Both the position numbers and the translations under genes were made by a program. Positions 1-44,352 of a stretch of 53,356 nucleotides of DNA are shown piece by piece (positions within the stretch are counted from its first letter, which is position 1; each line of letters starts with the position of its first letter). Origin of the DNA: Candidatus Dojkabacteria bacterium (GTDB taxonomy: Bacteria; Patescibacteriota; Dojkabacteria; JAOAGR01); the NCBI GenBank assembly GCA_026415655.1, contig JAOAGR010000007.1, forward strand, positions 1 to 53,356, given 5' to 3'. Below the pieces are notes generated by a model that was given only the letters and a program-made list of their open reading frames with translations, did no database searches and was not told the origin of the DNA.

Positions 1-168
1 CTTATCTACCATATCCAGACCATTGCAGATACGCTGATATACTGAAAACTGTATCATATCATAGCCATCTTTGATGAGTGCTTTTCTAAATCGTGCATAG
101 ATCTTACGTTGTTTTTTAGTAACAACCGGCAAATCAAATAAAACAAGTATCCTCATATACTTACTCAT
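1..168 (-). CDS. cas2: CRISPR-associated endonuclease Cas2, N-terminal part (cut by window edge)
   Basis: Cas2 is the structural partner of Cas1 in the spacer-integration complex. Only the first 56 codons are inside the window and the frame stays open to base 1. The translation begins MSKYMRILVLFDLP, the first beta strand with its conserved Asp typical of Cas2, followed by a basic helix (TKKQRKIYARFRKAL) and the DGYDMIQFSVYQR segment that resembles Cas2 of type II-C loci. A second possible start, 12 bases further in at position 156, would give MRILVLF, the usual Cas2 N-terminus, so the start is uncertain by four codons. It lies 37 bases downstream of cas1 on the same strand and completes the cas9-cas1-cas2 order. 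The rest of the gene, and presumably the spacer array, lie to the left of the window. Confidence 0.92.
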   Translation of the reverse strand, partial: MSKYMRILVLFDLPVVTKKQRKIYARFRKALIKDGYDMIQFSVYQRICNGLDMVDK

Positions 169-205
169 AAGTTAAAACTACGAGTATTATAACACAAAAT
201 TTTTG

Positions 206-1102
206 CTATAGGAATATAATTTCCGGCAATAATAACCTTTTTGGATCTTTTGCATTTATACTCATAACTAAAGTATCAACTAATACATCAACACTTTGTT
301 TTATATTTATCTTTTTATCGTTATGTAATACCCTGTATTCAAATATTTTTAATAACTCAAATTTTACCTCTTTACTCTGAATATTGTTCATTCCATTCTC
401 AAATAAATTTATCACATAACTATCAATAATAGGTCTATAAGGTTCTATCAAGTCATCGCTAAGGTTAAAATTGTTATATTGATTTTTATGAAAAATACCT
501 AAAGATGGTATAAAGCCATGAGCCACCAAAGTACGACTGATAGAACCTCTGACTATGCTATATGCATAATTCAAAAGGCCATTAACTGCATGATTATCAT
601 CTTCTCTAGAAAAATTTTCGCCAAATAAGGATCTAAAGTATATTTTAGATGCCAATCCCTCTTTATTATCACTATCGCCAGACTTGATATCATCAGCTAG
701 AGAATAAAGTTGTATTGATGTTTCATTATTGAGTTTATCCAATAATTTTGCCTGATTAATAATCTTTTGTCTAACTATACGTGCCCACAATTGTTTTTTG
801 AATGGCAAAGATAAAGAAATCTGCTTCTCGACTCTGAGTCTCTGACGTCCGAAACTATGAAATGGTATCGCTATCGCATTCGGTAAATGTTTTTCATCAC
901 AAAATATGATCAATATATCATGACTAGCACAGTATGATATAAGATATGATGTCAAAACCATTTGCCTGCTCTCTATGACTATAGCCGAGATATCATCTAC
1001 CGGTATATCTATTATCTCTTTGTCATCTTTTGTATATACTAGTCTATTATCTTTTATATTGAGCTTTCCATAGTCACTAAAATGTATGTATCTAAAACTC
1101 AT
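206..1102 (-). CDS. cas1: CRISPR-associated integrase Cas1 (type II)
   Basis: Cas1 is the metal-dependent integrase that inserts new spacers at the leader end of the array together with Cas2. The 298-residue length is normal for type II. Residues 1-80 form the beta-rich N-terminal domain with the IDIPVDDISAIVIES segment. The helical catalytic domain shows the expected metal ligands: Glu148 in NKEGLASKIYF, His205 in GIFHKNQYN and Glu220 in SDDLIEPYRP. The start codon overlaps the cas9 stop by four bases (ATGA), so the two genes are translationally coupled. No csn2 or cas4 is visible between cas1 and cas2, which fits subtype II-C, although genes beyond cas2 cannot be seen. Confidence 0.96.
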   Translation of the reverse strand: MSFRYIHFSDYGKLNIKDNRLVYTKDDKEIIDIPVDDISAIVIESRQMVLTSYLISYCASHDILIIFCDEKHLPNAIAIPFHSFGRQRLRVEKQISLSLPFKKQLWARIVRQKIINQAKLLDKLNNETSIQLYSLADDIKSGDSDNKEGLASKIYFRSLFGENFSREDDNHAVNGLLNYAYSIVRGSISRTLVAHGFIPSLGIFHKNQYNNFNLSDDLIEPYRPIIDSYVINLFENGMNNIQSKEVKFELLKIFEYRVLHNDKKINIKQSVDVLVDTLVMSINAKDPKRLLLPEIIFL

Positions 1103-4100
1103 CTCTTTTTCAACAACAATGGCATACGTTTCATTTTTTTCACATCATGGATAAAACCCAAGACATCTATATATTTCTTCTCAAAAACTTTCAGTTTGGT
1201 AATACCTTTTCTCAAGTTTTTCACCTTGTCACCTCCTTCTTTCTTTTTGCTGTCTTTATTGCCTTTCTTTTTTAAAAAACCACTTTTTGGATGGGACCCA
1301 TCATGAGTACGGAAATTATACTTACCGGACGCCGTTGAATCCATCGTCACATAATATAGATATTCTCCACTCACTCCATCACTTAGATATACTAGCTCCC
1401 CTGGATACAAGCTAAAACAAAACTCAAATGTATCATCGATGTGTTTATTATCTTTCAGTGGTGTATACTGTGTCGGTAGATCATGACGCCCTACCCAGCT
1501 AGCATATACCGGAACCGACTTATATCTACCCTTTCTCCTGAAAACATCTACGCGTACTATACTACCATTGTCAGCATAGCCTTTGCCCTTGCCTCTTTTG
1601 AGAGTCACATATGTCACTGCAGGACGCTCTACTATTTTTACTCGTTTTATTCTGTTTCTTCGTTCTGGATTTCGTGATGGTTTGTATATTGGCTCGATAA
1701 AAGCTTGCTTTGCATCCCAGTTATACTCCTCTAATCTCTCCCTAAGCACTCTGATAGTTTCTGGATCAGCTATGATCATACCTTTTAGATTCCTTGAATT
1801 GAGATCTTTTTCAAAATTAGATTTCTGAAGCTCAGTAAGGCTAATAGTTTTTATAAAGTATGCTTTACCATTTATCTTACGAATAGATTTCACTGTTTCT
1901 TCATGTATAGGTCCTGTTATCTTATATTTTGCCATCCTAGACACGAAAAGAGGACGTATGAATCTTACGTACTCTTCACCATACTGTTTATCTAATATTC
2001 CTTCTTCTCTCAGTTCCTCTATAGGATTATCACTAAATATACGTATATTCACATCTTTTCTAAAATTTGGCCATGGTTCGGGTGCAAACTTGATAGATTC
2101 AGGATCCACGCTTTTATCCAATACTTTTTGTCTATTTTCTTTGATTTTATACCACTCAGTAAATCTCATTAGCATCTTTTGATTTGCAACTCCCACAATT
2201 ACCGCATCAAGTGCATGATGTCTAAGATTTTCCTCTCTATCCTTGTTTAGTCCGTAACTTTTTCTGAGAAGACTCGTTAGTAACCCTTGGAAGGTATAAA
2301 CTCTTCTTTTTAGCTTCTTACTTTCTTTAAACAATAAATTATTTTCTAGATAGTTTTTGATAAATCTAGAAGCATATTTAGTATCGTTAGAATCTCTTTC
2401 CAAAAATGAATTTAAATCTCTTTGAGAATAGTTCTCTGTCAATAATCTAGCAATCTTTGATGGATGAAGTTTCATTACATCCGTCCAGATCTGTTTCATT
2501 CGTTCCCATCTTTCTGTATCATGACCGAAATACTCGAATGGAGTTCTATCACTTTTATTTTGATTTTCTTGTGCAAATACCAATACTTTATTATTGATAC
2601 TATCATCAAGACTTCGACTAAATGGTAATATATGATCTATTTCAGTGCTATTGATGAAGTCATCCACTGTGATTTCACGTCCTGAGTATACACATTTATG
2701 ATCCTGCTCTTTCCACAATTTAAACTTTGTTATATTTGTACCGTTTACCGGTATACCCAATCTCTCTAGCTCGGCTTGAATTTCTTTATTCTTCTCTTCA
2801 CGATCACGATTTTGGTTAGATAATTTTCCCCTTTCATCCTTGGGCAATTTCATCTCTCTAGCTAACTCAATATGTATCAAACTAGGTTTACCATATCGTT
2901 GAATAAGTGCATTGACTACTTTTCTTGTCTGTGCAATAGCTCTATGAACTACAGGATTACGAATATCATCATATGCTACCTCAGGTAGTTGGTCATATTT
3001 AGATACTGCCTCTTGAGGATTGTTTGATCGAATGTATGCTAAAGCTTCACTGTATTTAAGAGCCTGATCCCTAAGCAATGGCAACATCTCCCTACAAGCT
3101 CTGAGACTAAGATTTGAGGTACCAGAGAAATCAACATATACATTCTTAAGACCCTTGGAATATTCGGATAAACCTGCATTCGTCAAATTTTGTTCTAGTT
3201 CCTCCTTAGTATAAGAATAATTCATTATCTCTACCAGCTTATCGGCAGTATCGTATTTGTCAAGCTCGGCAAAAAGTGGATTGAATTTATCTTCTGACAA
3301 ACCACAGTTTTTTAACAAATGGTATCCTTTTAGGGCAAAAAATTTTCTGTTTTCAGCTTTTTTTGTCGGTATACGGATCCAACGCTCTTGATCCTCTTGT
3401 GATTTCTTTGATCCTTCATTTTGTGTGGTGCTTTGTTCAGCTTCTACTTGTGATTCGTCTTGTTTTTCTTTTTTACTTTTTTTAGAACTTTTGACCTTAT
3501 CAAAATAGGTACATGATTTGAAGTAAATTTTATCTTCTTCTGACAGTCCCAGTACTTTTGTTCTGATATCATAATACGTAATCTCTTCTTTCTCTAAAGC
3601 CAACTCGAATAACTTTTGTCTTAGATCATCTGTCAAATAACCATCTTCCCATTTACCATTTCTTGTATCTACCCATGTCAAATTATTAATTTTCTCCCAC
3701 AATGACTTAAATTCTACACTAGGAGCATATTTTGGCGCTCTAGGTTCATCTTTGTATATTTCACAGTATCCTACATTTTTCTTAATACTTTCCGCAGTAG
3801 CAAATGGTCTCTGGTACCCCACCGTATTATATAGCTGATCTGCAATTTCACGATTTATTACACCAAGTTCAACCTGTTTATCTAAAATCATTTTCAGCTC
3901 TTGTAAAATCATCTCTCTCTTTGCGCCAAAAATATAATTTTCACCCTCATTTCTTTTTCTCTCAACAAATAGTTCGTCTTTTAGAAGCATCTCGCCAATT
4001 GTGCGATAGTTCCTTTCTGATCGTCTTTGTTCCGTTTGTTGTATTGCATTTTTGTATCCCTTATCACTCTTATTTGCCTCTGATTTATTTGCATCTTTGG

Positions 4101-4551
4101 CATTGGATTTAAATCCCCTTCTCTTTGCGAGATGCAATACCGCCCTAGCCAATTCTGGTAAAGACAAAGCCTCATCCAGTCCTTTTACTCTTACTTCATA
4201 TGGATTGATACCAAAATATTCTTGTGACTCAAAAAATTCTTTGTCTTTGAAGACAGCGGGATAGTTTTGTATAAAAATATTTTTAATTTTTCTTAATCTC
4301 TGTTGCCTTCTGTCTATGACTCGTCTTAATCCCCTCGCCTCTCTTCTTTTTTGTGACGGTAAATTTCCTTTTTCATCCTCAATACTATCCCAGACTCTCA
4401 CTCCCACATCTATCAACCTCTTTACATCATATTTTTCACCGTCAGCGTTTTCTTCATCTATCTCTATCACCGCCCAACCTAGTGATGTAATGCCCAAATC
4501 TAGGGCTATCAGATAATCAAAATTTTTTGTGTTTACGTTTTTGAATTTCAT
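1099..4551 (-). CDS. cas9: Cas9 RNA-guided endonuclease, subtype II-C
   Basis: Cas9 cuts both strands of a target matched by crRNA:tracrRNA. All catalytic parts are present in 1150 residues. RuvC-I is ALDLGITSLGWAV with Asp18. The arginine-rich bridge helix is near residues 68-90 (RREARGLRRVIDRRQQRLRK). RuvC-II is IHIELARE with Glu562. HNH is EIDHILPFSRSLDD with Asp639 and His640, plus Asn663 in QENQNKSD. RuvC-III is HHALDAVIVG with His779 and Asp782. The last about 200 residues should hold the PAM-interacting region and reach the usual DVLG near residue 1132, then add an 18-residue basic tail. A charged low-complexity stretch at about 352-390 interrupts the recognition lobe. Domain order and size fit II-C, and every nuclease residue I could check is intact, so the enzyme is probably active. 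Confidence 0.98.
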   Translation of the reverse strand: MKFKNVNTKNFDYLIALDLGITSLGWAVIEIDEENADGEKYDVKRLIDVGVRVWDSIEDEKGNLPSQKRREARGLRRVIDRRQQRLRKIKNIFIQNYPAVFKDKEFFESQEYFGINPYEVRVKGLDEALSLPELARAVLHLAKRRGFKSNAKDANKSEANKSDKGYKNAIQQTEQRRSERNYRTIGEMLLKDELFVERKRNEGENYIFGAKREMILQELKMILDKQVELGVINREIADQLYNTVGYQRPFATAESIKKNVGYCEIYKDEPRAPKYAPSVEFKSLWEKINNLTWVDTRNGKWEDGYLTDDLRQKLFELALEKEEITYYDIRTKVLGLSEEDKIYFKSCTYFDKVKSSKKSKKEKQDESQVEAEQSTTQNEGSKKSQEDQERWIRIPTKKAENRKFFALKGYHLLKNCGLSEDKFNPLFAELDKYDTADKLVEIMNYSYTKEELEQNLTNAGLSEYSKGLKNVYVDFSGTSNLSLRACREMLPLLRDQALKYSEALAYIRSNNPQEAVSKYDQLPEVAYDDIRNPVVHRAIAQTRKVVNALIQRYGKPSLIHIELAREMKLPKDERGKLSNQNRDREEKNKEIQAELERLGIPVNGTNITKFKLWKEQDHKCVYSGREITVDDFINSTEIDHILPFSRSLDDSINNKVLVFAQENQNKSDRTPFEYFGHDTERWERMKQIWTDVMKLHPSKIARLLTENYSQRDLNSFLERDSNDTKYASRFIKNYLENNLLFKESKKLKRRVYTFQGLLTSLLRKSYGLNKDREENLRHHALDAVIVGVANQKMLMRFTEWYKIKENRQKVLDKSVDPESIKFAPEPWPNFRKDVNIRIFSDNPIEELREEGILDKQYGEEYVRFIRPLFVSRMAKYKITGPIHEETVKSIRKINGKAYFIKTISLTELQKSNFEKDLNSRNLKGMIIADPETIRVLRERLEEYNWDAKQAFIEPIYKPSRNPERRNRIKRVKIVERPAVTYVTLKRGKGKGYADNGSIVRVDVFRRKGRYKSVPVYASWVGRHDLPTQYTPLKDNKHIDDTFEFCFSLYPGELVYLSDGVSGEYLYYVTMDSTASGKYNFRTHDGSHPKSGFLKKKGNKDSKKKEGGDKVKNLRKGITKLKVFEKKYIDVLGFIHDVKKMKRMPLLLKKR

Positions 4552-4597: not shown

Positions 4598-5044
4598 CCA
4601 TCTTTGTGGGAACGGTAGATGAGAAAGATAAATAACGTACTCAAATTACACATAGACATCTACAAGATACAAACTTGGAATTTGATACTTCACAAATATT
4701 ATATCTGAACATAATATGATGTGAGCTGTATCATTTAATTATACTTTTGCAATCGTCTCATACCTTCTACAATTACAAACTGTAACCTCATTTCCATATG
4801 TATATCAAACCAAAATGCCCCCAAAACTCGCATTTATCGTCTCAAAATCCAATGTCCATGATGTTTTTTCTCAAATGTATCTAATTTTCATGCTATCCTG
4901 TGTTGAACAAGATAAAAATTGTGTTGATAACTTTAAATAATCCATAATTCCAAAATTTGCAACGTCATCGTAATGTCATTATCAGCCTTATATCCATCGA
5001 CCTAATGCTAACCTCTTGATTGCAAAAAATAGGGAGATTATTCA
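4598..5044. other. Non-coding spacer between cas9 promoter and tracrRNA candidate
   Basis: I see no convincing reading frame on either strand, no CRISPR repeat and no tRNA. The stretch has short AT-rich runs only. It could carry the far-upstream part of the cas promoter region. It is listed so the gap is accounted for. Confidence 0.5.
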
Positions 5045-5118
5045 GTTATAAAAAGCTCCGGGCGAAGCCCGGAGCGAGTCACGGTATCAGGCAAAGCCTA
5101 ATACCTTATTTTTATAAC
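5045..5118. repeat. 10-bp inverted repeat enclosing two hairpins
   Basis: GTTATAAAAA at 5045-5054 and TTTTTATAAC at 5109-5118 are exact inverted copies. Between them are the two hairpins described for the tracrRNA candidate. On the plus strand the structure also ends in a T-run (5109-5113) after the GGTAT...ATACC hairpin, so it could terminate transcription from both sides. If the outer arms pair, the whole element forms a three-way junction. Confidence 0.7.
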
Positions 5119-5165
5119 CATATGTCCCAATAAATATTTTAGAGTATTTTTGTTTTTTTGTGTAA
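5048..5165 (-). ncRNA. Candidate tracrRNA for the adjacent Cas9
   Basis: On the minus strand the sequence reads as an A/U-rich segment (5165-5110), the junction AAAAATAAGG (5113-5104), a nexus-like hairpin (GGTATTAGGC / GCCTGATACC with a TTT loop, 5105-5083, one mismatch), a short linker GTGACTC, and a 9-bp GC hairpin (GCTCCGGGC, TTC, GCCCGGAGC, 5075-5055) followed by TTTTT. The motif ATAAGG, then nexus hairpin, then terminator hairpin, is the usual 3' half of tracrRNAs of Cas9 systems. The presumed anti-repeat lies upstream, so the CRISPR repeat is expected to begin with something close to TTTTTATAACCATATGTCC. Location (upstream of cas9) and strand fit II-C loci. The 5' end is uncertain. The array is outside the window, so anti-repeat pairing could not be checked. 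Confidence 0.72.
5050..5075 (-). terminator. Rho-independent terminator (tracrRNA and/or the upstream 585-codon gene)
   Basis: On the minus strand a 9-bp GC-rich stem (GCTCCGGGC / GCCCGGAGC, loop TTC) is followed at once by five T residues. This is one of only two textbook intrinsic terminators I find in the window. It would end the tracrRNA candidate and would also stop read-through from the gene ending at 5213. Confidence 0.85.
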
Positions 5166-5212
5166 GTAGTACATTATTTTAAAAGATCCATATTGAAAAA
5201 ATTCAATCTGAT

Positions 5213-6970
5213 TCATGTTATTTCAGGTAAATCTACTTGGCGATTTTGTACATCAGTTTTGATAGATTCCCTGACGAGCCATAAACTATTCTCAATCATC
5301 TTTCTCTTCTCTACTTCATTATCATAATAAGCATCAGTACAGCTGCTCATATCATACTTATATAGATTCATGACAAGATTGGCATAGTAGAAAGACTTAT
5401 CTTTCTCACCAATGATATAATAAAAGTGGCTAAGACCAGCACATCTATACATAAACATGTATCCCCAGTTTCTTCTTACAGAAATCCTTATCCAAGATTT
5501 GTAAAATCTTTCAATTATATGTTTTTCCTTTATAGACAAATTTAATTTATATTTTACTAGTTTAATTTGTTTTAAATAACCTGCTACAAAATTAATTATA
5601 TCCATTGGACTATTTGGCATACTCCTGAGTAACTCTTTAGCCACAAAGATTCTTTGTTCACGATTTAATCTCCTTTTTGATACATAATATTCCCAAACAA
5701 ATGAATGAAAATAATATATATGATTATCACCTTCAATCGATAAGCAATATGCCAGAGTCGAATTTGGCACAGGATCTATCACATAGGTCCATCTAGTTAG
5801 TTTACTTCTTCTGAGGTATTCATTCTTACGCTGATCTTTCACAAGAAAAACAGATTCATCCAAATATGCCAAATAATCATTAGATAACCTAACTATATTA
5901 GATAGATGATGATATGTTTGGACTATACAATGTTCTACATCTAGGTATCTGTTCAATAAAATATATGTCATTAAAGCAATACCAGTACAATTCATCCTGC
6001 GAGTGTGATAAATTTCACCTATATCAAAAATCTCCCTTTCATAAACAAAAAAATGAGAACATCTTAGAAAATCAACCAAAAGCTGGCAAGCTTTCATCTC
6101 TAACTCTGATTTTTTTATTGGATCTTTTTCTCGGTTTATAAGCTGTATGTATTCTTTTATACTGCGCCCATTTGCGTAATTTTTTTCAAAAATTGCTAAT
6201 AATTTATGCAGATCAGTCAGTCTCTCTACTTCTAAACATGCTATTTCGAATATAATTGATTGCAATAGGTGCTCTATCTTTAGATATAAATTGGATAATA
6301 AATATTTCAGTCTTTGTATTATTACACTTGGGCTTATCTCGGACTGTTCTGATTTGTGATTAAAAAATAGATGTCTTTGTAATAAATCTAATATTTCGGT
6401 TGTGTCTATTTCAAAACTTATCCCATTTTCGTCACATGTCGATAAAACTCCAGTAATTGTGTTTTTTAACTTTTTTATATGGACATTATGTATCAAGACT
6501 TCATTTGTTTTGTAGAAGTATTCTAATGATTTACATAGGAAGTATATCTCCCGTAAATATTTATTACACAGGATATTAACCTTTGATTCAACATTGACAT
6601 GTTGTCTATACCAGGATCCATAAACATCCACTAGTTTAATCGATAAATCAAAAAGATTTACGAAATCAAAATGCTTATGATTTATTATAATCCTTATCTC
6701 TGGGACTTGTGTCTCCTTCTTCGTATGCTTAATAGATGATTTGTCATTTGGATCTTCACCTACTTCTATCTCTCCATCTATTGCATGTATTGTATTTGTA
6801 TATTTCCTTATAATGTATTTCTTTTTTAGTTTTTTATTTGTCTTTATCGAAATGTACGTACCGAAATACTTACAACAAAAATCAATTACACTCCAGTACA
6901 TTTTTGCCCCCAAAAATGGTAGTTTGGGCCTTTTATCGAGTCTTATCATATTTAAAAATGAATTGTACAT
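5213..6970 (-). CDS. SirB1-like (transglutaminase-like) protein with TPR-like C-terminus, function unknown
   Basis: This 585-residue protein has no firm family assignment. Residues 325-371 resemble the transglutaminase-like cysteine core of SirB1-type proteins: RRMNCTGIALMTYILLNRY with Cys328, then His354/His355 27 residues later, then Asp371 in AYLDES, with a further VIDP (Asp399). The C-terminal part (about 500-570) is helical and TPR-like, as in SirB1 relatives. The first 320 residues are rich in Lys, Ile and Asn and are not recognised. No signal peptide or membrane segment is seen. The gene ends about 50 bases before the tracrRNA candidate. A decayed second copy lies upstream at 7239-7373. 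A peptidase or transferase role is inference only; a link to the CRISPR locus is possible by position but unproven. Confidence 0.8.
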   Translation of the reverse strand: MYNSFLNMIRLDKRPKLPFLGAKMYWSVIDFCCKYFGTYISIKTNKKLKKKYIIRKYTNTIHAIDGEIEVGEDPNDKSSIKHTKKETQVPEIRIIINHKHFDFVNLFDLSIKLVDVYGSWYRQHVNVESKVNILCNKYLREIYFLCKSLEYFYKTNEVLIHNVHIKKLKNTITGVLSTCDENGISFEIDTTEILDLLQRHLFFNHKSEQSEISPSVIIQRLKYLLSNLYLKIEHLLQSIIFEIACLEVERLTDLHKLLAIFEKNYANGRSIKEYIQLINREKDPIKKSELEMKACQLLVDFLRCSHFFVYEREIFDIGEIYHTRRMNCTGIALMTYILLNRYLDVEHCIVQTYHHLSNIVRLSNDYLAYLDESVFLVKDQRKNEYLRRSKLTRWTYVIDPVPNSTLAYCLSIEGDNHIYYFHSFVWEYYVSKRRLNREQRIFVAKELLRSMPNSPMDIINFVAGYLKQIKLVKYKLNLSIKEKHIIERFYKSWIRISVRRNWGYMFMYRCAGLSHFYYIIGEKDKSFYYANLVMNLYKYDMSSCTDAYYDNEVEKRKMIENSLWLVRESIKTDVQNRQVDLPEIT

Positions 6971-7468
6971 TCTATATGCCTACAATAAAATGAGAACAAA
7001 AAATACTAGCATAGATTTGAGTTAATCTGTGGCATCACATAAAAATCAATATAAAGTCAATAAATAAAGGAATCGTTTTATTTTTAATCAAAAGTGATGT
7101 ACACAGTTACAATATACAAATAAAAATTAGGCTCAACAAACCAACTGCTTCACATATCATTTTATGACCTTTATCAATTCAGGATGATATTATGCAAAGA
7201 ATTCTTGAGGCACTTATTTATGTTATGCAAGCTTTATTTCAACACTCCTTTTCAATCTCTGCGTCATTTTTATAATCATCAGTCCAACCGCTCGTATCAT
7301 ACTTAATATAAATTTAGACAATATTAGAATAATAGAAATACTCACTATTGTAGTGAATGAATAAAACGTGTATCTAAAAACGTAGGATGAAAGGCAAAAC
7401 CGAATTGATAGTCCGGACTCATACCCGAGTCATAACCATATTGAAGTGACACTATCCCTTTGTAAAAA
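6971..7468. other. Non-coding stretch containing a gene remnant
   Basis: No intact gene is present. Part of the stretch (7239-7373) is a degraded paralogue of the neighbouring 585-codon gene, listed separately. The rest is AT-rich with scattered stops in all frames. Confidence 0.6.
7239..7373 (-). pseudogene. Remnant of a paralogue of the SirB1-like gene (C-terminal part)
   Basis: Translated on the minus strand from about 7373 to 7239, this stretch gives NSEYFYYSNIV, a stop, then IYIKYDTSGWTDDYKNDAEI before another stop. It aligns with residues 514-556 of the 585-residue neighbour (KSFYYANLVMNLYKYDMSS, then CTDAYYDNEVEK). The nucleotide match is also visible, for example around TCAGT and TATCATACTTA in both copies. 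An internal TAA, and the absence of any intact reading frame upstream, show that it is dead. The likely history is a tandem duplication followed by decay. Confidence 0.75.
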
Positions 7469-11362: not shown

Positions 11363-12067
11363 TCAAATAACTATTATCTCCCCATTATCAATTTCCAAAA
11401 AAGATCTTTTAATATTTTCACTTTTTTTAATTTTATTTAATAACTCTGTTATTAATTCGTCACCGTTCATACCACCAAACAAAGCAATATGTGGTTCGTA
11501 TTTATATACACTATTTGGCAATTTACGTGAATTTGGGATATATGGCAAATTAGCAACTATCATACAGTCTGATAAATTTTCGAATTCCAAATCACGAAAA
11601 TCTGTATGTATCAGCTTAATCTTATTTTGTAATTTATATTCTGTAATATTAATATTTGCGACATCTAGCGCATCTTTTGAGATATCAATACCGTAAAACG
11701 AAATATCTCTATCACGAAGCTGATCTGCTAAATAGATAGCGATACATCCAGACCCAGTACCGATATCTAATACACACCGCACATTATCTTGTGAGGCAAT
11801 ATACTCTAAAGACAATTTCGCAAGTTCCAATGTTTCCTGCCTTGGTATAAGTACTCTATTATCCACATACAGTTGACACTCACCAAATTCGGCAAGATTA
11901 AATATGTATTCAATCGGTTCATCAGCTTTTAATCTAACAAAGATTTCCTCCAAGGTAAGTCTATATTCAACTTTGTGAAAATACTTGATAATAAAGTTAG
12001 TGTATTGTACACGCAAATATTCTGGCAAAAAATCCAACTTTTTATAAATATCTAAGAAATCGAGCAT
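11363..12067 (-). CDS. prmC: Release factor glutamine N5-methyltransferase
   Basis: PrmC methylates the GGQ glutamine of release factors using S-adenosylmethionine. At 234 residues it is shorter than most (about 280), mainly in the N-terminal helical domain. Residues 71-80 show RVLIPRQETL, the substrate-side motif. Motif I is VLDIGTGSGCIAIYLA (99-114) and the acidic strand end is GIDIS. The catalytic tetrapeptide reads NLPY (173-176) instead of the family's usual NPPY. This is typical of some related N6-adenine methyltransferases, so specificity could be questioned, but the VLIPR motif and context favour PrmC. Its start overlaps the end of recF by 26 bases. Confidence 0.9.
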   Translation of the reverse strand: MLDFLDIYKKLDFLPEYLRVQYTNFIIKYFHKVEYRLTLEEIFVRLKADEPIEYIFNLAEFGECQLYVDNRVLIPRQETLELAKLSLEYIASQDNVRCVLDIGTGSGCIAIYLADQLRDRDISFYGIDISKDALDVANINITEYKLQNKIKLIHTDFRDLEFENLSDCMIVANLPYIPNSRKLPNSVYKYEPHIALFGGMNGDELITELLNKIKKSENIKRSFLEIDNGEIIVI

Positions 12068-43614: not shown

Positions 43615-44352
43615 ATGTCTCAACACGTAAATTACGAACACATCATTGAGAAAACTGAAAATAATAAGGTATCAAGGTTATTGAAGAAGATAGAGATAAA
43701 ATCTACCAATTTAGATTTATACAAAGAAGCACTAACACACAAATCAGCTTGTAAAAAACACAACGAAAGGCTTGAGTTTTTAGGTGATGCAGTATTGGAA
43801 TTAATTGTGACAGAATTGCTATTTAGAGATTTCCCACATCTTTCTGAGGGGGATATGACTAGTCTTAGAGCAGCAATAGTTAAAACTGAAACTCTCAGTA
43901 TGGTAGCTAAAAAGATGAGGCTTGGCCATTACATTATCATGTCAAAGAGCGAAGAAGCTACCGGAGGCCGAAAAAGACCATATATTTTGGCTGATGCATT
44001 TGAGGCTTTACTAGGTGCTATTTATTATGATCAAGGATTTGAAAAAGCAAAATCTTTTGTTAGAAAAAATCTGTACTATAAAGTAAAAGAAATTATAGAA
44101 ACTCGTGAAGATATAGATCCGAAGTCAAGATTACAAGAATTTGCACAAGAAAAATTTAAGCAAACACCAATATATAAAGTTATTCAAGAAGAAGGACCAG
44201 ATCATGATAAAACATTTACCGTGGTCACAATGATTGGTGAACATGTTTATTCAAAAGCAAAGGGCAAATCCAAACAATCAGCCGAACAAATTGCCGCTAG
44301 AAAAACATTAAAAAGATTAGAGAAAAAATTTAACAAAACTCAGATGAATTAA
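43615..44352 (+). CDS. rnc: Ribonuclease III
   Basis: RNase III cuts double-stranded RNA in rRNA and mRNA maturation. The 245 residues hold the catalytic signature ERLEFLGDAVLEL (51-63, Glu54 and Asp58), ILADAFEALLGAIYYDQG with the second acidic pair, and a C-terminal double-strand RNA-binding domain from about 170. The start follows the ftsZ stop directly. In type II CRISPR systems RNase III commonly processes the tracrRNA:crRNA duplex, so this enzyme is the likely partner of the locus at the left end. Confidence 0.97.
   Translation: MSQHVNYEHIIEKTENNKVSRLLKKIEIKSTNLDLYKEALTHKSACKKHNERLEFLGDAVLELIVTELLFRDFPHLSEGDMTSLRAAIVKTETLSMVAKKMRLGHYIIMSKSEEATGGRKRPYILADAFEALLGAIYYDQGFEKAKSFVRKNLYYKVKEIIETREDIDPKSRLQEFAQEKFKQTPIYKVIQEEGPDHDKTFTVVTMIGEHVYSKAKGKSKQSAEQIAARKTLKRLEKKFNKTQMN

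Follow-up and report, generated by a model that had tools for sequence, protein, structure and literature searches.

A predicted type II-C tracrRNA in a Dojkabacteria genome and its matching CRISPR array on an adjoining contig

Type II-C guide RNAs and the Dojkabacteria cas locus

The tracrRNA is the helper RNA that enables Cas9 to use guide RNAs. Among the closest described systems, the guide of GeoCas9 (PMC12514136) has a geometry identical to that of the element presented here, with 8 bp in the lower stem, a UC/UU loop, a C-G pair opening the upper stem and AUAAGG, but its region 3' of the nexus is longer, whereas our locus has one nexus hairpin and one terminator. The crRNA:tracrRNA and sgRNA of Neisseria meningitidis (Nme1) Cas9 (PMC9674691) share with our element the 8-bp lower stem ending in G-U, the UC/UU loop, AUAAGG followed by a hairpin and the type II-C cas genes, although they carry extra upper-stem mismatches and a longer 3' part and have little sequence in common with it beyond the conserved positions. 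Similarly, the AtCas9 guide (PMC12634846) agrees in AUAAGG and in the geometry of stem and loop, while its stem sequence and 3' hairpins are different. The II-C locus of Bordetella pseudohinzii (PMC4624362) likewise has the order cas9-cas1-cas2 with its array on the far side of cas2, and upstream of cas9 it encodes a tracrRNA that has a promoter and a terminator; this tracrRNA is, however, divergent from cas9, while ours lies on the cas strand. The predicted tracrRNA differs from known ones only in its sequence and its short 3' part. Candidate-phyla bacteria seldom carry CRISPR, and Dojkabacteria are known for Cas12a (PMC6509639); in a literature search of incomplete coverage, no description of a Cas9 tracrRNA from Dojkabacteria came up.

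The window analysed here (53,356 nt) is the entire contig C11 (G000:C11) of a Dojkabacteria (WS6) genome of 882 kb in 14 contigs (92% complete). Its cas genes occupy the left end on the minus strand (Table 1), and the contig end itself falls within cas2. Only cas9, cas1 and cas2 are present at the locus, with no match to csn2 (II-A) or cas4 (II-B) among the neighbouring ORFs scanned, so that the gene set, as read from the sequence, is that of II-C. The RuvC and HNH catalytic motifs of Cas9 (D18, E562, D639-H640, H778-H779 and D782) are all in place and conserved in a 55%-identical relative. The best matches among solved structures are Cas9 chains of 1055-1095 aa, which we take to be mostly of the Geo/Nme type within II-C. 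The same contig also encodes RNase III, the host enzyme that would be expected to cleave the duplex of repeat and anti-repeat.

Table 1. Features of the cas locus and of the predicted tracrRNA (positions in the window)
Feature	Position	Strand	Remarks
cas2, 5' part	1..170	minus	3' part at end of contig C12 (L022)
cas1, type II	206..1102	minus	TIGR03639
cas9, 1150 aa, full length	1099..4551	minus	TIGR01865 E 4e-198; Pfam HNH_4 + RuvC_III
tracrRNA, predicted full length ~81 nt	5050..5130	minus	promoter spacing, anti-repeat, two hairpins, T-run
intrinsic terminator, GC hairpin, 9 bp	5055..5075	minus	-18.2 kcal/mol; T-run TTTTT 5054-5050
nexus-like hairpin, 10 bp, UUU loop	5083..5105	minus	starts inside AUAAGG; -13.6 kcal/mol
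anti-repeat TTGGGACATATGGTTATAAAAAT	5108..5130	minus	pairs with repeat positions 1-23
promoter-like TACACA-17-TAAAAT	5136..5164	minus	predicted start ~5128-5130 = first base of anti-repeat
585-aa gene, family unknown	5213..6970	minus	upstream of tracrRNA
rnc, RNase III	43615..44352	plus	TIGR02191 E 1.3e-75

Parts and fold of the predicted tracrRNA

The minus strand from 5130 to about 5050 almost certainly represents the tracrRNA of a type II-C CRISPR-Cas9 system. It shares its strand with cas9, whose start lies ~500 nt further downstream, and the order of its parts on the cas strand is TTGGGACATATGGTTATAAAAAT-AAGG-hairpin-spacer-GC hairpin-TTTTT, with ATAAGG at 5109-5104. A preliminary description of this DNA, made with the array out of view, had proposed a tracrRNA candidate upstream of cas9 from ATAAGG, a nexus-like hairpin and a GC terminator hairpin with a T-run; all of these could be located, both hairpins lie downstream of the anti-repeat, and the folding energy of the 59-nt 3' half is -34.6 kcal/mol, compared with -15.8 +/- 2.6 for shuffles (z -7.3). 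A terminator scan found one terminator against 0.2 expected. The same description had extended the anti-repeat over 5110-5165, of which the part up to 5130 stands (with the limit moved to 5108), while 5131-5165 turned out to be promoter-like sequence. Taken alone, the -35/-10 pair is weak, since such pairs occur at 8 sites in the region against 5.2 expected, a count not above chance; its position, with a start at the anti-repeat, nevertheless supports a promoter role. Every sequence-level feature of a tracrRNA for which we tested is present in the candidate element. In Rfam at the gathering threshold only tRNAs were matched, and the element has no match to a curated RNA family.

The repeat, the array and the contig junction

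From the anti-repeat it had been predicted that the start of the repeat would closely resemble TTTTTATAACCATATGTCC and that the array would lie to the left of cas2. No repeats were found within the window, and the array is invisible there because contig C11 starts inside cas2. When the genome was searched for TTATAACCATATGTCC, allowing up to 3 mismatches, the tracrRNA site was matched along with hits in a regular series on contig C12, with 2 mismatches. This array, at the end of contig C12 (61,179) that abuts C11, comprises 7 nearly identical repeats GTTTTTATTCCCATATGTCCCAAGTTGTGGTAAACT and 5 spacers of 30-31 nt, is convergent with the cas operon, and the 3' part of cas2 comes after it. Where the two contigs meet, their terminal 16 nt (the end of C12 and the start of C11) match at 15 positions with 1 mismatch, and the cas2 frame is open, without a stop, across the joined ends; since the contigs overlap and cas2 reads through the junction, the array is placed directly left of cas2, where it was expected. 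Array and cas9 are nevertheless on separate contigs, and their join depends only on this 16-nt overlap with its one mismatch and on the cas2 frame.

Seventeen of the 19 predicted letters of the repeat were right. The two wrong ones coincide exactly with a conserved 2x2 internal loop, in which UC of the repeat faces UU of the anti-repeat; a full complement of the anti-repeat would call for AA at this point, which is why they were missed. The duplex consists of 8 bp, the first being a terminal G-U, the 2x2 internal loop and 13 bp, so that the complementarity between segment and repeat, on which the candidate had been made to depend, is there. Repeat positions 2-23 form 20/22 Watson-Crick pairs with 5130-5109, while the next best site on either strand of the 53 kb window reaches 16/22; among 1000 shuffled repeats, no more than 19 pairs were ever obtained. 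Likewise, the possibility of a better anti-repeat elsewhere is not borne out, as a genome search for positions 2-23 allowing up to 3 mismatches gives 8 matches, namely the 7 array copies and the anti-repeat, and a backwards control pattern gives 0 in the same search. Pairing energy alone is not decisive, because RNAduplex on 40-nt tiles ranks the tracrRNA site first only narrowly (-28.6, vs -28.1 for an intragenic tile at 11521).

These values bear on another reading of the element, in which it would be no more than an intrinsic terminator or attenuator serving the 585-aa gene, its resemblance to the repeat being accidental. It does lie downstream of the stop codon of that gene on the same strand, it is a good terminator, and it could also terminate read-through from the gene; an accident of such complementarity, unequalled among the shuffles, is hard to credit, however, and the same element precedes cas9 in three other genomes, with covarying repeat and anti-repeat (see below), so that we regard this reading as extremely improbable and retain that of a tracrRNA. 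The region beyond the 585-aa gene contains, at ~7259-7305, an apparent decayed partial copy of the C-terminal region of its protein. A similar stretch flagged by the repeat finder (7266-7285) was rejected as an anti-repeat, being apparently such a decayed copy of the neighbouring gene.

The array has several features of its own. In its last repeat, AAGTTGTGGTA pairs perfectly with the flanking TACCACAACTT, followed by T's (L022:5934-5960), in an 11-bp hairpin that is likely the terminator of the array transcript, with the repeat supplying half of it; a terminator-like hairpin is found at the same place in the related locus L033. The first repeat has its last letters changed to ATC, and between it and the remaining six lie 754 nt (L022:4828-5581, G000:C12) with a GC content of 37%, against 29% in the flank. 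This stretch, apparently inserted into the array, encodes an orphan ORF of 163 aa (4930-5421, plus strand) with an HNH-like RHH...N...H...H pattern, for which Pfam, PADLOC, phage, viral-contig and class-wide searches gave no match. With regard to a Neisseria-like promoter within the repeat (an extended -10 at its 3' end), the repeat of the related locus L034 ends in TGTATAAT, a good match, whereas that of the window's genome ends in TGGTAAACT, a weaker one. The 3' ends of the five spacers had no match in IMG/VR, and neither the five full spacers nor one putative spacer matched phages; no protospacer having been found, no PAM was derived.

Relatives within Dojkabacteria and working of the system

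Three other loci of the Dojkabacteria class carry TTATARARATAAG and the hairpins just upstream of cas9, in one copy each. The first (CALDYZ010000018.1 = contig G051:C18, L024), from another Candidatus Dojkabacteria genome, encodes the Cas9 of 55% identity; L034 (genome G014) has an array of GTCTTTATTCCCTTCTAATTCCCGATAGTGTATAAT, and L033 (genome G019) two decayed repeats, one of which reads GTTTTTATTCCCCGTAATTCCCCGTAGTGTAAAAT. A search of G051 for the predicted repeat yielded, besides the anti-repeat (L041), one lone site with no surrounding array; its array is absent from the assembly. In the two loci that keep repeats (L034 and L033), the own repeat is the best partner of the own anti-repeat, and the cognate duplexes of the window's genome, L034 and L033 share the 8-bp stem, the UC/UU loop and the upper stem. 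Energies of cognate duplexes are -28.4, -36.2 and -28.0, vs -13 to -23 for non-cognate pairs. Covariance had been suggested beforehand as a check on the element, and in six duplexes (Dojkabacteria together with the Nme, Geo and At guides) 97% of cells pair and seven of 12 pairs covary, changing on both sides, in an alignment which was cut by hand around the pairing and therefore leans towards structure, the six not being a random sample. When the partner is slid by 1-3 columns as a control, pairing drops to 37-57%.

Matches to Cas9 were obtained in 5 of 86 searched genomes of the class; 4 of them have this type of tracrRNA, and 2 of those 4 a broken cas9 frame. In G195, the DNA around a Cas9 fragment contains no such tracrRNA motif or array, and the Cas9 match of G425 is very weak. 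G009, with an array of a different repeat and a distant Cas9, was set aside. No close relative of the window's Cas9 was found among viral contigs; a nearly full-length relative, 29% identical, is encoded at 100-3351 of MT837457.1, a 6.8-kb phage record ('Bacteriophage sp.') from human faeces.

In L034 and L033 cas9 is broken by stops or frameshifts while the tracrRNA is kept, and L033 has no open cas2 among the listed ORFs. The broken cas9 of G014 and G019 could suggest that the element is the tracrRNA relic of a system no longer working, as could the shortness of the array and the lack of a spacer with a known target. The broken frames may, however, be partly assembly errors, and in the window's genome cas9 is full length with its catalytic motifs, cas1 and cas2 are open, the repeats hardly differ from one another, and repeat, anti-repeat and hairpins are all undamaged. 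We therefore consider a relic very unlikely and favour the tracrRNA of a working system.

In such a system, RNA polymerase would start at the anti-repeat and stop at the GC hairpin with its T-run. The 23-nt anti-repeat pairs, as sequence and covariation show, with nucleotides 1-23 of every repeat copy in the transcribed array. By analogy with known Cas9 systems, Cas9 would bind both the nexus-like hairpin and the duplex, which RNase III may trim, and the Cas9 complex would cut DNA that matches a spacer. A further-reaching proposal, which we regard as speculative and rather unlikely, is that Dojkabacteria possess a II-C lineage of their own, with a compact two-hairpin tracrRNA of ~81 nt and guides showing no cross-reaction with the Cas9s described so far, and that the 754-nt insert, which holds the HNH-like ORF, may be a functional accessory.

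The tracrRNA alone can suffice to predict the CRISPR repeat when an assembly breaks before the array, and a repeat so predicted can locate the array on another contig, which helps where metagenome assemblies are fragmented. For the Dojkabacteria, a candidate-phylum group that seldom carries Cas9, this adds a set of Cas9, tracrRNA and repeat that is probably complete.
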